DNA of 64,000 nucleotides from Umezawaea tangerina (lineage in GTDB: Bacteria; Actinomycetota; Actinomycetes; Mycobacteriales; Pseudonocardiaceae), in contig NZ_PVTF01000002.1 in the NCBI RefSeq assembly GCF_003002815.1, forward strand, positions 62,001-126,000. The letters are read 5' to 3'. Positions 5,683-62,153 of this stretch are shown here, piece after piece; position 1 is the first letter of the stretch; each line of letters starts with the position of its first letter. Below the pieces are notes generated by a model. It was not told the origin of the DNA, did no database searches, and saw only the letters and a list, made by a program, of their open reading frames with translations. The position numbers were made by a program, and so were the translations under genes.

Positions 5683-6737
5683 GACCCGACCGCGGTGGGG
5701 CGCCACAGGTCCGGGCTCGACGCCGCCGTGGTGACGTCGTGGCCGGTGCGGCCCTCCAGGGCGAGGTCGACGCAGATCGCACCGAGCAGCGGGGCGATCT
5801 TGAACACCCAGCCGGTGACGCAGACGACGACGTCGGGGTGTCCCGGCACGAGGTCGACCAGGGTCTCGCGCGCCAGCAGACCGGGCGCGTCGGGACGGGT
5901 GAACAGTGAGCAGACGCACGCGGAGGCGTCGACGGGGGTCGGGTCCAGCCACGGCATGTGCCCGCGCACCCAGTCCCCGATCAGGGCGACGACCCCCTGG
6001 TCGGGCGGTCCAGGCCGGTCGTCCGGTTCGCGCCGGACAGCGCTCGGGTAGTTCGCGCCGACCCGCGCGAAGCCGGGGCGTTCCCAGGACAGCTCGGGGA
6101 ACCCGTAGTAGAGACCGGGATCGGTGCCGGTCGAGGCCTGGAAGTCGATCCACGTCGGCAGGTCCGCGGCCGGCGAGGTGGTGCGGAAGTAGGCCGAGAC
6201 CATGGTCCACGTCCTGGTGTCCAGCTCCAGACCCAGCAGCCGCAGCACCGAGTTGGTCTCCGGACCGGCGGCGATCACGAGCTTGGCCGCGTGGACGGTG
6301 GTCCCGGCGTCGGTCTCGACGCGGACGCCGTCGGCACCGGCGCGGATCGCGGTGACCCGCTCCCCCTGCCGCAGCTCGACGTGCGGCGAGTCGCGGGCCG
6401 ACCGGTGCAACGCGCGCAGGGTCGCCTTCACGTCGGTGGCGGCGCCGTCGGGCTGCAGGAACCCCGTCCACCACGCCGGATGCCCGTGAAGCCGAACCGC
6501 CGGGTCACCTCGTGGGCGGTGAGGCGTTCGAACGGCACGTCCAGCTGGGCCATGATCCGTTGCACCGCGTCGATCCGCCCTTCCGCGCCGGGCGCGCGCG
6601 GGTCGCCGAACCACAGGCAGCCCGTGCGGGTGTTGAGCTCCTCGTCGGTCCCGGCCTGCAACCGGGCCCACAGCGGGAGGGAGGCGAGCACCAGCCGCGC
6701 CACCGCCGACGACGACCAGGTCGACAGGCCCGTGCAT
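5673..6737 (-). pseudogene. sarcosine-oxidase-like FAD amine oxidase, decayed
   Basis: The start (MHGPVDLVVVGGG) is the first strand of an FAD Rossmann fold, but the reading then switches frame near 6700 and jumps directly to ARLVLASLPLWARLQAGTDEEL, a block that lies ~50 residues further on in monomeric sarcosine oxidase/N-methyltryptophan oxidase relatives. The missing stretch holds the rest of the FAD-binding motif. A second single-base shift near 6485 returns to the first frame at HPAWWTGFLQPDGAATD, after which the protein is intact to residue FKIAPLLGAICVDLALEG. One internal deletion plus one 1-base deletion make a null allele. The downstream dehydrogenase may still be translated through the overlap. 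Confidence 0.8.
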
Positions 6738-6957
6738 CGGCGTCTCCTCACCGGGCGGGCTCGTCCGCGCGCCGCCTCAGAGGAATAGCGCGCGTGGTGG
6801 ACCCGCGGGCGTCCCGGACCGGCCGCTTCACCTGAAGGTGTCCGCTGTTCCGAGGGTCGCTCGCGATTCGTGGACGGCCCAGATCCGATTCGTTTTCGCG
6901 ATGCCGCGGGGAGAACTCCACCCTGACGGGGGATCGGGCGCCGAATAGCCTCGACGG

Positions 6958-7935
6958 GTGAAGATCCGCGCCGATGACCTCGTTCTGCACCTCAACGACT
7001 ACCACTTCATCCACCTGTACCGGAACGTCAACGCCGGCACGATCCACACCTCCACCGCACCGCACGTGGTGCTGCTCGACGAGTTCCGCGACTGGAACGG
7101 ACTGGCCGCCGCCGCGGCCGCGGCGAAGAAGGCGGACTTCACGTTCGGCGGGATCGAGTGGACCAGGAAGGGCAACGAGATCTTCCCGTCCGACGGCGGC
7201 AACGCGGTGGCGTTGAGCGGTCCGGACATCCAGACCCTGGTCTCCTTCCTCAACGACGACGTCGGGATCCCGGCCGGGAAGCGGACGAAGGACTTCGACA
7301 AGGCCCTCCTGCGCGTCGAGTCGATGCGCAAGGCGAAGGCCTCGAAGGAACTGGGCTTCCAGTGGCCCGCGAAGCTCCCCGGCGGCGTGCGCACCAAGGC
7401 GGGGAAGAGCGGGGCCACCAAGTCCGAGCACTTCGCGTGGGGCCCGAACGGCGCCGTCGAGTACCCGCACGTCCACCTCTTCCTCGACGCGCACGGGTTC
7501 GTGACGGAGGGCAGGGCCACCCTCGTGCCGGCGCACGGCACCTCGACAAAGCGCGGGTTCCCGCTCCTGAACGACCTCACCTTCGACCGCTCGACCGCGC
7601 TCGGGACCGACGACACCGCGCTGCTCGAACTGGAGAAGGTGATGAGGTCCGTCGTGTACGGCGAGGACTTCCAGGGCGGCCCCGCGAAACCCCAGGAGGA
7701 CGCTCCCGCCGAGCCCGTGCACGAGAACGCGGCCCACTACGAGTCGTTCGGGATCGCGTGGAACGTCCCCACCGCCTGGGTCGCGGCCGTCTTCCCGGAA
7801 TGCGGCATCGAACTGCACGAGCTGGGCGACTTCGGCCCCAAGGACCTCGTCCAGATGGCGAACCCGCCGGGCGGGAAGCCGCGGTTCACCGTGCCGGACT
7901 CGGCCTACGACAAGAGGGGCAACAGCGACTACTGA
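6958..7935 (+). CDS. hypothetical protein, 325 residues
   Basis: No family recognised. The GTG start at 6958 follows a 220-bp region without another gene. The protein is soluble, with no signal peptide or membrane segment, and more lysine-rich than its neighbours (AAAKKADF, RKAKASKELGFQW, RTKAGKSGATKSEHF). The C-terminal third contains EYPHVHLFLDAHGF, a His-rich patch, and an ESFGIAWNVPTAWVAAVFPECGIE block. GC-rich third positions and a hairpin terminator right after the stop support a real monocistronic gene. Confidence 0.7.
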   Translation: MKIRADDLVLHLNDYHFIHLYRNVNAGTIHTSTAPHVVLLDEFRDWNGLAAAAAAAKKADFTFGGIEWTRKGNEIFPSDGGNAVALSGPDIQTLVSFLNDDVGIPAGKRTKDFDKALLRVESMRKAKASKELGFQWPAKLPGGVRTKAGKSGATKSEHFAWGPNGAVEYPHVHLFLDAHGFVTEGRATLVPAHGTSTKRGFPLLNDLTFDRSTALGTDDTALLELEKVMRSVVYGEDFQGGPAKPQEDAPAEPVHENAAHYESFGIAWNVPTAWVAAVFPECGIELHELGDFGPKDLVQMANPPGGKPRFTVPDSAYDKRGNSDY

Positions 7936-15495: not shown

Positions 15496-16803
15496 GTGAC
15501 CCCCGTAAGCACCACGTCCGGACCGGATGAGGCGGACGCGCTGTGGAGCCATCCCCTGTACGAGCGCGCTTCCCGCCTGTGGCGGCGGCTCCAGCGGCAC
15601 GACGCCGCCCGGCCGTGGCTGACCGACCTCGCCCTGGTCGTGGGTGTCGTGCTGGTGTTCTGCGTGCCCGACCTGGTCCCGTGCGGCTGCTCGGCGGACT
15701 ACGCCGACCACACCATCCTCCCGACCGTGAACCACCTGTCGTGGCAGGGGACCGTCGCGCTCCAGGCCGGGCTGGTACTGCCGCTGTACTGGCGCAGACG
15801 GTGGCCGGGACCGGTGCTGGGCGTCGTGATCGCGGTGTTCCTCGTCCAGTGGTCGCTGGGCGCCTGGCTGCGCGCCGACGCCGCGGTGCTGATCGCCCTG
15901 TGCAGCCTGGCTCTGCACGGGGTGCCGCGGCGGCTGCCCGCCGCCGTCGCCGTCACGATGGCCGTCCTGACCCTGATGATCCTGCGGGTCCGCAACGACG
16001 TGTCGTTCCTGGACGCGTTCTTCTACATCCTGACCAACATCATCGCGGCGGTCTCGGTCGGACTCGCCCTGCGGATCCGCCGCGTCCAGCTCGCCGGACT
16101 CCGCGACCGCGCCGCCCGTCTGGAGGTCGAACGTGACCAGCGCAGCAGGCTCGCCGCCGCCACCGAACGCACCCGCGTCGCCCGCGAGATGCACGACATC
16201 GTCGGCCACCACGTCTCCGTCATGATCACCCTCGCCGACGGCGGCGGCTACGCCGCCGCGCTGTCACCCGACCGCGGCCGCCAGGCGCTGCTGCTCATCG
16301 GCGACACCGGCCGCCAGGCACTGCGGGAGCTGCGCCGCAGCCTCGGCGTGCTGCGCGAGCACACCGACCCCACCGACCTCGCCCTGCACCCCGGCGGCAT
16401 CGACGTCGACGACCTGTGCGCCCGGATCCGCGCCGCCGGTCCGCACGTCGTGCAGCACACCGACGGCGACCTGGCCTCCCTCGACCGCAGCGTGCAGCTC
16501 GCCGTGTACCGCATCGCCCAGGAGTCCCTGACCAACGCGCTCAAGCACGCGGGCGGCAACACCACGATCACCCTGGCCATCACCGTCGAGGACACCCGCG
16601 TGAGCATCGACGTCACCGACACCGGTCCCGGCACCCACCGCCCCGCCGCCGGCCAGGACGAAGGCCATGGCCTCACCGGAATGCGCGAACGCGCCGCGCT
16701 CTACGACGGCACCTTCGGCGCGGGCCCCACCCCGCGGGGCGGCTGGACGGTCCACGCCACCCTCGCCCTGTCCGCACCCCGCGCGACCACGGGGGCCGCA
16801 TGA
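15496..16803 (+). CDS. sensor histidine kinase (NarL/DesK-type)
   Basis: 435 residues. Five to six membrane segments (~45-190) with a short CGCSAD external loop, then a dimerisation domain with phospho-His in REMHDIVGHHVSVM and an ATPase domain (QESLTNALKHAGGN, DTGPG, GHGLTGMRERAALYDG). GTG start 15496. Overlaps the response-regulator start (ATGA). It is 50 bp after the DoxX-Rieske gene on the same strand, so may sense the same redox or metal signal. Confidence 0.93.
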   Translation: MTPVSTTSGPDEADALWSHPLYERASRLWRRLQRHDAARPWLTDLALVVGVVLVFCVPDLVPCGCSADYADHTILPTVNHLSWQGTVALQAGLVLPLYWRRRWPGPVLGVVIAVFLVQWSLGAWLRADAAVLIALCSLALHGVPRRLPAAVAVTMAVLTLMILRVRNDVSFLDAFFYILTNIIAAVSVGLALRIRRVQLAGLRDRAARLEVERDQRSRLAAATERTRVAREMHDIVGHHVSVMITLADGGGYAAALSPDRGRQALLLIGDTGRQALRELRRSLGVLREHTDPTDLALHPGGIDVDDLCARIRAAGPHVVQHTDGDLASLDRSVQLAVYRIAQESLTNALKHAGGNTTITLAITVEDTRVSIDVTDTGPGTHRPAAGQDEGHGLTGMRERAALYDGTFGAGPTPRGGWTVHATLALSAPRATTGAA

Positions 16804-17471
16804 CCACCGTCCTCATCGTCGACGACCACCCGTTGCAGCGCTTCGGCTTCCGCATGCTCCTCGACAGCAACCCCGACACCGAGGTCCTCGGCGAGGCCTC
16901 CCGCGGCACCGAGGCCGTCCGCATGGCCTCCGAACTGCACCCGGACGTCATCCTCATGGACGTCCGCATGCCCGGCATGGACGGCATCGAGGCCACCCGC
17001 CGCATCGTCGACACCGGCGGCCGGTCCCGCGTCCTCATCCTCACCACCTTCGACCTCGACGAGTACGCCCACGCCGCCCTGCGCGCGGGCGCCAGCGGCT
17101 TCCTCCTCAAGGACGCCCACCCCGAAGAACTCCTCGCAGGCATCCGCGCCGTCGCCGCAGGCGACGCCGTCATCGCCCCCGCCCTCACCCGCCGCCTCCT
17201 CGACACCTTCACCCAACACCTCGAACCACCCACCACCCCACCAACCGACGACCCCCGCCTCTCCACCCTCACCACCCGCGAACACCAGATCCTGCTGGCC
17301 ATCGGCCAAGGCTGGACCAACGGCGAAATCGCCGCACGCCTCTTCCTCTCCGAATCCACCGTCAAAACCCACGTAGGCCGTGTCCTGGCCAAAATCGGCG
17401 CCCGCGACCGCGTCCAAGCCGTAATCCTCACCTACGACCTAGGCCTAACCCGCCCCAACGCACCGGAGTAA
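16800..17471 (+). CDS. NarL/FixJ-type response regulator
   Basis: 223 residues. Receiver domain with acidic pocket VDDH, phosphoacceptor Asp in DVILMDVRMPGMDG, and conserved Thr/Lys (LTTFD, LLKDAHPEE). LuxR-type helix-turn-helix at the C-terminus (LTTREHQILLAIGQGWTNGEIAARLFLSESTVKTHV). Cognate partner of the kinase encoded immediately upstream (4-bp overlap). Codon use at the 3' end is less GC-rich, running into the repeat region. Confidence 0.94.
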   Translation: MTTVLIVDDHPLQRFGFRMLLDSNPDTEVLGEASRGTEAVRMASELHPDVILMDVRMPGMDGIEATRRIVDTGGRSRVLILTTFDLDEYAHAALRAGASGFLLKDAHPEELLAGIRAVAAGDAVIAPALTRRLLDTFTQHLEPPTTPPTDDPRLSTLTTREHQILLAIGQGWTNGEIAARLFLSESTVKTHVGRVLAKIGARDRVQAVILTYDLGLTRPNAPE

Positions 17472-17488
17472 AACCCAGAACACCAGCC

Positions 17489-17598
17489 GCCCAACAACGC
17501 TGGAACAAACACACAAGCGGCCCAACGACGCTGGAACCAAAACACAAGTCGCCTGACGACGCTGGAACCAACACACAAGCCCCCAACGACGCTGGAAG
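17489..17598. repeat. 31-bp tandem repeats, 3.5 units, left flank of hairpin element
   Basis: Units start at 17489, 17520, 17551 and 17582 (the last one runs into the hairpin element). Consensus begins GCCCAACGACGCTGGAACC and ends ACACACAAGCS. The period is exactly 31 bp, with no unique spacers. A degenerate version with CCCAACGACGCTG precedes the second hairpin copy near 61940-62013. No coding content seen. Confidence 0.8.
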
Positions 17599-17738
17599 CG
17601 AGCACGCTCGTCCGCTCGTGCGGTCGGCTTGACTTGGGGTTTTTGGGCTTAAAATGAGTCGGCGGGCAGGCTCTACCACCTGCCCTTTTTCGCCCGACGA
17701 AGCCCAAAAAAGGGGCCCCAAGTCAAGCCGACCGCACC
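17599..17738. repeat. 140-bp nested hairpin element, copy 1
   Basis: Outer arms 17618-17650 and 17700-17737 pair over 33 bp (left arm starts GTGCGGTCGGCTTGACTTGG; right arm carries a 5-base AGGGG bulge). An inner stem GGGCAGG/CCTGCCC followed by TTTTT lies in the loop. The right half thus resembles an intrinsic terminator. TTGACT (17629-17634) and TAAAAT, 15 bases apart, resemble a promoter. It differs from copy 2 (62014-62153) at only three positions. The palindrome CGAGC-AC-GCTCG opens the element. Confidence 0.85.
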
Positions 17739-17851
17739 CGGAGACAGCTGTAGCGACACCCCGTAGACCGTGGAAGCGACACCGGGCGAGCCCCACCGCG
17801 GCTAGAACACCAGGCGACCCCCACCCACCCCACCCCCGATAAACTCCCACC
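17739..17851. repeat. right flank of hairpin element with short repeats
   Basis: TAGCGACACC and AGCGACACCGGGCGAG (17775-17790) are short related repeats; the latter recurs at 62166-62181, with similarity continuing through CGCGGCT and GGCGAC. The remainder is C/A-rich leader sequence of the gene at 17852. No ORF supported. Confidence 0.6.
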
Positions 17852-18310
17852 GTGGACGACGCCCAACTCCTCGCCCTCCTCTCCCAACGCGGCACCGTGC
17901 CCTACCCCGGCACCTGGTCGACCGCCCCACTCCCCCTCCTCCCCCACCACAACTGCACCGTCATCGCCCGCGACGACGGCATCAGCACCCTCGCCGTAGA
18001 CCGGCAAACCGGCCACGTGCACCTCTACATGGACGACGACACCGAACCCCACCTCGTCAACTCCGACATCCCCTCCCTGATCGCCTGCTCCCTGGTCTAC
18101 GAACGCGCCAGCGCCGAGGTCGACGCCATGGAAGACCGCGACGACTACCCGGACGACGACGATGACGACGAGGACGTCATGGCCCGCGCGGACGCCTTCA
18201 CCGAGGCCCTGATGGCAGAACTCCGCAGCATCGACGCACCCGCGGTAACCGACCCGGAGAGCCTCTGGTCCACCGCCGCGGAAGAACTCGGCTACGCGAT
18301 ACCGGTCTAG
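17852..18310 (+). CDS. small acidic protein, possibly SUKH-type immunity family
   Basis: 152 residues, strongly acidic with a run of Asp/Glu near residues 93-109 (DDYPDDDDDDEDVM). The pattern ISTLAVDRQTGHVHLYMDDDTEPHLVNSDIPSLIACSLVYERAS resembles SUKH-4-like immunity proteins (strand, turn, then a VNSS-like strand and helix). No toxin gene is adjacent, so an immunity role is only a family-level guess. GTG start 17852 follows the repeat element. Confidence 0.55.
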   Translation: MDDAQLLALLSQRGTVPYPGTWSTAPLPLLPHHNCTVIARDDGISTLAVDRQTGHVHLYMDDDTEPHLVNSDIPSLIACSLVYERASAEVDAMEDRDDYPDDDDDDEDVMARADAFTEALMAELRSIDAPAVTDPESLWSTAAEELGYAIPV

Positions 18311-62013: not shown

Positions 62014-62153
62014 CGAGCACGCTCGTCCGCTAGTGCGATCGGCTTGACTTGGGGTTTTTGGGCTTACAATGAGTCGGCGGGCAGGCTCTACCACCTGCCC
62101 TTTTTCGCCCGACGAAGCCCAAAAAAGGGGCCCCAAGTCAAGCCGACCGCACC
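62014..62153. repeat. 140-bp nested hairpin element, copy 2
   Basis: Same length and layout as 17599-17738 with three substitutions (near 62032, 62038 and 62067). The promoter-like pair is TTGACT and TACAAT, 15 bases apart. The right arm with AGGGG bulge and T5 tract is unchanged. Lies between the divergent carbamoyltransferase and ESX-like genes. The right-hand AGCGACACCGGGCGAG recurs at 62166-62181. Confidence 0.85.

Follow-up and report, generated by a model that had tools for sequence, protein, structure and literature searches.

Candidate solo end-palindromes of a DUF222-HNH mobile element in Umezawaea tangerina

Introduction

A 64,000-nucleotide stretch of the Umezawaea tangerina genome, called the window here, contains two almost identical palindromic elements on its plus strand, copy 1 at 17599..17738 and copy 2 at 62014..62153. 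What kind of element are they, and how did they come to be so alike? An initial annotation of the window left the choice between a MITE-like or REP-like repeat and a conserved structured RNA, possibly a leader of the small gene that follows copy 1. Comparison with relatives in the same genome, in congeners and in other genera of the family leads us to favour another reading, that the elements are orphan ends of a mobile element built around a DUF222-HNH ('13E12') gene.

Genomes named below are the window genome (G000), U. endophytica (G001), another Umezawaea (G002), an Allokutzneria closed chromosome (G035), K. aridum (G257) and Lentzea NBRC 105346 (G288). G261 is grouped with K. aridum, and G138 shares an address with G035.

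Results

Recounting confirmed that the two copies share 137 of 140 bases, the mismatches falling at 17617, 17623 and 17652. Folded as RNA, copy 1 reaches -85.2 kcal/mol (z -8.4), and the 121-nt stems of both copies folded as DNA have z of about -10; none of 200 dinucleotide shuffles equaled either result. Refolding also recovered the reported 33-bp stem, inner hairpin and run of five T residues. The outer stem of copy 1 is interrupted by a single 5-nt bulge, AGGGG (17711-17715), which is asymmetric (CCCCT on arm A) and recurs in the sequences of relatives. Arm B (17618..17650), recognised from the fold and from outer-stem covariation, includes TTGACTTGGGG; arm A (17700..17737), recognised from the fold and by pattern searches, reads TTGACTTGGGGCCCCTTTTTT on the minus strand. 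Between them the fold places an inner hairpin (17658..17698) with T5 at 17686-17690, terminator-like on the plus strand. Arm B contains a -35-like TTGACT (17629..17634), followed at 15 bp by a -10-like TAAAAT (17650..17655). The 15-bp spacing, reported correctly for both copies, separates the -35-like box of copy 2 (62044-62049) from its TACAAT (62065-62070); the stem of copy 2 spans 62033-62152 and its bulge 62126-62130. A small accessory palindrome, CGAGC-N-GCTCG (17599..17610), adjoins the arm-B end of copy 1.

The two copies had been placed in otherwise unrelated intergenic regions, which is not wholly so, as both are flanked by degenerate repeat words, CGACGCTG and GCTGYAGCGACACC among them. 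Copy 1 is bordered on the arm-B side by a degenerate tandem repeat around CCCAACGACGCTGGAA (17481..17598) and on the arm-A side by a degenerate, GGAGACAGCTGTAGCGACACC-like repeat recognised by eye (17741..17800). By eye, CCCAACGACGCTGGAA-type words adjoin many of the 30 window-genome copies printed. Repeat units shared genome-wide surround many palindromes of this genome, CCCAACGACGCTGGAA... on the arm-B side and GGGGTGTCGCTACAGCGGACTCC on the arm-A side; in other genera other arrays flank the palindromes, several of them likewise with TTCCAGC (by eye). The genes beside copy 1, both on the plus strand, are a candidate response-regulator-like gene upstream (16800..17471, assigned by eye) and the small gene downstream (17852..18310), for which we found no match in the orthologous G002 stretch or in 60 G002 palindrome loci.

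The elements belong to a large family. The 16-base arm motif TTGACYTGGGGCCCCT, searched with at most one mismatch, has 113 matches in the window genome (56 forward and 57 reverse, compared with 2 and 0 for the reversed control pattern), a number that the window alone could not reveal. The same search gave 76 matches in U. endophytica, 75 in G002 and 52 in G035. A two-arm pattern occurs in 9 of 390 genomes of the family and 4 of 46 genera (reversed control 0), namely in 3/3 Umezawaea, with 112, 72 and 48 exact matches, 3/3 genomes of genus g34 (Allokutzneria), 2/8 of g27 (which includes K. aridum) and 1/24 of g8 (Lentzea NBRC 105346). Across a class-wide sample of 394 genomes it was present only in the window's own. 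Among 80 listed 16-mer stretches, those judged by eye to form hairpins came from Umezawaea, Allokutzneria, Lentzea, Kibdelosporangium and one Rhodococcus-labelled record. Searches of 72,556 plasmid and 50,697 phage records returned no match to the palindrome. An origin from plasmids or phages was therefore rejected; around the lone 16-mer match in a viral contig, the 300 bp read contain no second arm.

Conservation across genera is mostly limited to TTKACYTGGGG, present in both arms, and to CCCC(T), which follows it in just one of them; beyond these marks the sequence changes with pairing mostly retained. The one-sided CCCC(T) forms an asymmetric bulge in folds from Umezawaea (U. endophytica included), Lentzea and Kibdelosporangium; the single Allokutzneria copy folded gave a weak structure (z -1.9, equaled by 10 of 200 shuffles). 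Among 140 distinct end pairs passing a strict arm filter, 88% of cells at outer-stem positions -11 to -1 are paired, compared with 29-37% after a shift of the arms by 1-2 bases. At position -1, 86 pairs are C-G and 54 T-A; at position -2, 76 are G-C and 62 A-T. The third base of TTKAC is paired in only 70 of the 140, several Allokutzneria copies are unpaired beyond position -3, and the inner stems vary from lineage to lineage. The arms covary even inside one genome. Covariation had been proposed as a mark of a functional RNA, as opposed to the flanking duplications of a mobile repeat; pairing is indeed kept, but it cannot tell RNA from mobile DNA, because DNA palindromes covary too.

Several features bear on transcription. 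Among copies in which arm B was recognised, those of one genome not being independent, TANNNT lies 15-17 bp from TTKACY in 80/80 distinct copies of the window genome (with varying middle bases), 25/25 of U. endophytica, 34/57 of G002, 34/35 of Allokutzneria, 12/12 of the K. aridum group and 1/10 of Lentzea. This promoter-like TTKACY-N15-17-TANNNT arrangement recurs in several lineages, so arm B may give rise to a transcript. Outside Umezawaea the T-run is not retained and the inner hairpin is different or missing (by eye), and an Rfam search of 17301-18000 gave no match up to E 1. Copy-by-copy counts place CGAGC-N-GCTCG next to arm B in 55/82 copies of the window genome, 20/57 of G002 and 5/12 of K. 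aridum/G261, and in 0/23 of U. endophytica, 0/19 of Allokutzneria and 0/10 of Lentzea; none of the copies of these six groups has it on the arm-A side.

Gene context in Umezawaea was read with a simple home-made gene caller, and copies were counted if genes were called to the left and to the right of them. The midpoints of all examined copies fall outside called genes. The 70 copies of the window genome divide into 33 in convergent, 33 in tandem and 4 in divergent gaps, and the 65 of G002 into 29, 33 and 3; among 1,028 background gaps of the same regions, 190 are convergent and 236 divergent, the test being approximate because this background covers the two genomes together and also counts occupied gaps. 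Within tandem gaps, 47 of 66 copies point along the genes in the promoter- or terminator-like direction (p 0.0008 pooled; 22/33, p 0.08, in the window genome and 25/33, p 0.005, in G002, some positions being common to both). Clustering of 854 predicted proteins encoded within 3.5 kb of fetched Umezawaea copies (12-kb-class loci) gave ordinary families, the largest by eye being ABC transporter ATPases (19), reductases (10) and LacI-type regulators (10). No transposase or mobile gene family recurs among them, and a shared transposase beside the copies was rejected. With 33 of 70 copies in convergent and 4 in divergent gaps, no gene family that generally follows the copies, a T-run that by eye is not retained in other genera and no Rfam match, the idea of a conserved structured RNA or leader of the small gene is not upheld as the defining function.

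Palindrome copies are gained and lost between congeners. The G002 ortholog of the gene upstream of copy 1, at L313, is 87% identical and has no palindrome after it, a different gene following instead. We found no clean empty site with a sharp boundary: L313 and L311 are free of the unit but differ on one side, and the L225/L148 and L167/L157 alignments show presence and absence with no clean boundary. Matches of at least 5 bp between the two ends occur in 21 of 83 copies of the window genome; a swapped-flank control gives 19 of 83. The corresponding figures for G002 are 11 of 57 and, in the control, 3 of 57, a weak excess; the earlier observation that no target-site duplication is visible thus stands. 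With neither a clean empty site nor a convincing target-site duplication, these comparisons fall short of demonstrating true transposition. Y1_Tnp (PF01797) has no match in G000, G001, G002, G035 or G288 and one in K. aridum. An origin as REP elements moved by a RAYT was rejected on this count (5 of 6 genomes, including all three Umezawaea), and with it the label REP-like in that sense. The label MITE-like fits in kind, since the family is dispersed, intergenic and of inverted-repeat anatomy; the missing duplications do not fit.

Orthologous positions show how the copies evolve. Flanks were compared for 83 of the 113 copies of the window genome and 65 of the 75 of G002, with a strict filter for shared addresses that required collinear matches within 900 bp to the left and to the right. 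The two genomes have 18 addresses in common, compared with 1.8 expected under independent insertion into 3000 eligible gaps or 5.4 into 1000. Orthologous cores are 0.79 identical, against 0.78 for random between-genome pairs, and the true ortholog ranks from 0 to 64 (median 29.5) among the 65 G002 copies. Random core identity within genomes is 0.91 in the window genome and 0.79 in G002, whose copies are diverse and fall into several subfamilies. The best paralog is 0.97-0.99 identical in the window genome and 0.67-0.99 (median 0.95) in G002, the lowest value belonging to L163. This palindrome, like that of L133, also from G002, is truncated in the loop with one arm left.

The outermost arm bases are of two types with different flanks, and the type is concordant in 18 of 18 ortholog pairs as assigned (6 and 12; Fisher p 5e-5, or 7e-4 if the ambiguous L155, GGCGG, is scored discordant). 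Leaving out L163 brings the ortholog core mean to 0.81, with 0.79 for the remaining 11 pairs of type I; for the 6 of type II the mean is 0.845, with ranks of 0-26 of 65, partly through inherited outer arms. Three of the 18 address pairs have inverted cores. Flank order is clearly kept in two of them, and in the third, L030/L150, the flank signal is weak. Paralogs are thus more alike than orthologs while the flanks are inherited, as in concerted evolution, most strongly for the 12 type I pairs and partially for the 6 of type II. Between these two genomes, outer arms and flanks are inherited and cores are largely genome-specific, overwriting being incomplete. From these comparisons we infer that gene conversion is the process homogenising the cores. 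Independent re-insertion at hot spots, considered as another source of shared addresses, is countered by the 18/18 outer-arm concordance.

Relatives of the palindrome border DUF222 genes. On the Allokutzneria closed chromosome, a same-strand DUF222 domain lies 290-533 bp downstream of 33 of 39 exact arm motifs (343-378 bp for 28 of the 33) and of 7 of 13 one-mismatch motifs; the random expectation is a mean of 0.11 and a maximum of 2 in 2000 draws. Conversely, a palindrome lies upstream of 40 of the 50 DUF222 matches of this chromosome (a second Allokutzneria genome has 61 matches). DUF222 is at most 700 bp away from 9 of 10 exact palindromes in K. aridum, where 5 of 6 fetched loci have the arrangement palindrome, DUF222 unit and inverted palindrome, the members of a pair being 96-99% identical. 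The interval between the inverted palindromes is 1.05-2.13 kb and holds DUF222, and inverted similarity reaches outward beyond them. L060 and L118 of Allokutzneria likewise have inverted palindromes around DUF222; by eye, the G035 units either retain only a remnant of the 3' palindrome, close to the stop codon, or show none. The longest frame between the palindromes is 178 aa in L289 and 656 aa in L291 of K. aridum, compared with 385-408 aa in the other three loci, which suggests decay or recombination between units. In U. endophytica, L032, L075 and L085 contain inverted pairs of two palindrome subfamilies about 90-150 bp apart, possibly the left and right ends of units whose interior was lost.

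The encoded proteins fall into two DUF222 subfamilies. That of L060, encoded at 5772-6989, matches DUF222 (1.4e-37) and HNH (2e-6) in Pfam, and the shorter subfamily (L267) matches DUF222 with no Pfam HNH at E 0.01; in an alignment of seven sequences from both, the HNH-type Cys, His and Asn residues do not vary. An AlphaFold2 model of DUF222-HNH had a mean pLDDT of 52.6, too poor for a fold search. Proteins of the two subfamilies are only about 25-28% identical and the palindromes in front of them are near-identical: in 20 fetched G035 units, palindrome identity between subfamilies is 0.894, versus 0.884 and 0.898 within them. This likeness regardless of subfamily suggests that palindromes are exchanged independently of the DUF222 genes. 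At an address common to G035 and G138 (flanks 91% identical on the left and 92% on the right), the gene lies in opposite orientation, as expected if inverted palindromes recombine and flip the interior; the G138 unit spans a contig break, of which both edges were read and the middle was not.

The Umezawaea genomes differ from these. The DUF222 domain search gave no match in the window genome or U. endophytica, and the seven matches in G002 are not linked to palindromes. Upstream of these seven we found no TTKAC arm and no perfect stem longer than 16 bp, the latter a weak test that misses imperfect palindromes, since perfect stems are only 10-11 bp in four palindrome-bearing G035 units. What Umezawaea has in common with the DUF222-bearing units is the end palindrome itself, with TTKACYTGGGG arms and the one-sided CCCC, and within this genus a DUF222 origin would be indicated by palindrome homology alone.

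Of the 20 TTGAC palindromes of Lentzea, none of the 10 listed is near DUF222. A different palindrome of 62 bp lies within 700 bp of 16 of the 17 DUF222 matches in this genome, 10 of which have it on both sides; of 30 palindromes of this kind, 26 are linked to DUF222. This second family reads ACGTTGGCATTTTCG...CGAAAATGCCAACGT and is preceded by a small GC hairpin (for example L322, 1196-1257 and 2799-2860). In the units printed, long terminal inverted repeats contain the palindromes, which as judged by eye often follow directly on a stop codon. The exact 62-bp pattern is absent from G000, G001, G002, G035 and G257. The second palindrome makes the association of DUF222 with palindromes more general.

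Discussion

We consider it probable, with some reserve, that the repeats of the window are solo copies of the palindrome that ends a DUF222-HNH mobile element, and that ectopic gene conversion has homogenised them. The full unit would consist of a palindrome, a DUF222-HNH gene as its only recognisable gene and an inverted palindrome. In Umezawaea the gene would have been lost, or become rare and unlinked, and about a hundred palindromes would be left solo in gaps, for the most part behind genes. These would hold inherited addresses while their cores are overwritten by copies from the same genome, and a core could flip in place. The recognition mark may be the conserved TTKACYTGGGG arms with the one-sided CCCC bulge. 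A break or nick at the palindrome would be made by the HNH protein where present and otherwise by host hairpin nucleases such as SbcCD, and repair from another copy would spread a variant and occasionally invert it. Homogenisation in Umezawaea cannot need DUF222, because two of the genomes have no match and the seven genes of G002 are unlinked. Cutting, conversion and mobility are our reading of sequence patterns. More broadly, and only tentatively, DUF222-HNH genes may be the engine of transposase-free mobile elements with palindromic ends, in which the nuclease opens palindromes, homologous repair copies, flips or overwrites them, and solo palindromes go on homogenising themselves after the gene is lost.

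A classical MITE moved in trans by an unrelated transposase, with palindromes acquired by DUF222 genes and shared addresses reflecting insertion hot spots, seems to us rather unlikely. The patchy spread (9/390 family genomes, 4/46 genera), the presence/absence differences between congeners, the strong gap preference (33/70 copies convergent versus 190/1,028 gaps), the weak end-match excess of G002 (11/57 versus 3) and the Lentzea TTGAC copies unlinked to DUF222 (0/10 among the matches listed) would all suit it. But no transposase family recurs among the 854 neighbouring proteins, though a single master gene may lie elsewhere, and the window genome has no excess of target-site duplications. Nor does it sit well with outer-arm types that agree in 18/18 pairs while cores are largely replaced, with 18 shared addresses where 1.8 (3000 gaps) or 5.4 (1000) are expected, or with the tight DUF222 spacing in two genera. 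An RAYT origin, like a conserved RNA, is disfavoured.

Selection for a functional RNA or terminator, with a promoter in arm B and a short RNA ending at the inner hairpin, termination behind genes, or both, is improbable in our view. A -10-like TANNNT near-universal in all three of G000, G001 and Allokutzneria and in the K. aridum group speaks for it, as do the paired outer stem (88% versus 29-37% slid), the common direction of 47/66 tandem-gap copies and the depletion in divergent gaps; against this, the -10 is found in only 1/10 Lentzea copies, genera other than Umezawaea have a different T-run and inner hairpin or none (by eye), no Rfam family matches, and neighbouring genes are mostly unrelated. 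Selection on structure alone would not homogenise cores within a genome, and the promoter-like box of Allokutzneria points away from the DUF222 gene. Quasi-palindromes produced by the host, with no mobile element at all, are more improbable still: hairpin-templated correction during replication would keep the arms paired, SbcCD/RecA repair would homogenise the copies and the DUF222 linkage would be secondary. This reading would lead one to expect arms that covary even within a genome, homogenisation and core flips in the window genome, where DUF222 has no match, and palindromes that the two DUF222 subfamilies have in common independently of the gene. It does not explain the TTKACYTGGGG/CCCC marks common across genera, the almost constant spacing between palindrome and DUF222 gene, or the unrelated second palindrome that occupies the corresponding position around DUF222 genes in Lentzea.

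The proposed solo end-palindromes resemble several known systems in part. REP elements are about 20-40 bp long, and solo LTRs are orphan end-repeats that outnumber full elements. REP/BIME elements with RAYT are likewise palindromic and intergenic, with tens to hundreds of copies per genome, whereas the window family is about 120 bp long and five of six genomes have no Y1_Tnp. Solo LTRs are an analogy only: orphan ends outnumber full elements in both, but here there is no retroelement and the palindromic ends are inverted, not direct. MITEs are also short, non-coding repeats with many intergenic copies and inverted-repeat ends, and have larger coding relatives with the same ends, which here were seen in other genera only and encode DUF222. 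Unlike MITEs, the present family shows no convincing target-site duplication, no transposase was found, copies evolve in concert at inherited addresses, and the end of the element is itself a complete palindrome with an asymmetric bulge. BOX/RUP and other bacterial stem-loop families are similarly dispersed; compared by description only, they differ in that the available portions of PMC3049150 and PMC2267715 mention no link to a nuclease gene.

REP13E12 loci are reported to be among the most gene-converted of M. tuberculosis (87 events) and are described as without defined biological function in the available part of a preprint (PMC13061034), and REP13E12, HNH endonuclease and DUF222 are grouped as repetitive elements in that of PMC10589994, from which the equation of REP13E12 with DUF222/HNH is taken here. 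The likeness is that relatives' palindromes border DUF222(-HNH) genes and that gene conversion, reported for the M. tuberculosis loci, is apparent for the palindromes too; the difference is that the window genome has no DUF222 match and that these portions of the two papers mention neither palindromic ends nor solo palindromes. In the literature searched, including the available portions of PMC13061034, PMC10589994 and PMC6582537, we found no link between DUF222 elements and palindromic ends. DUF222-HNH genes are abundant in some actinobacteria and, in the same portion of the preprint, without defined biological function (PMC13061034). If the palindromes are their ends, the mode of spread would involve a nuclease with palindromic targets or ends and no transposase. 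The Umezawaea palindromes would also be a clear bacterial case of concerted evolution among about 100 dispersed, non-coding 120-bp repeats at inherited addresses, in which short palindromes are copied over each other without moving.

Two minor observations concern the distribution of the family. On the 8.57-Mb Allokutzneria chromosome (G035 C1), all but 3 of the 52 arm motifs (49) fall within the interval 0.44-3.91 Mb. Kibdelosporangium-type palindromes also occur in a record that bears the name Rhodococcus rhodnii NRRL B-16535 (L073 and L108; JOAA01000012.1 and JOAA01000073.1); its 320,956-bp contig has the length of C12 of G261, and the record is possibly mislabelled.
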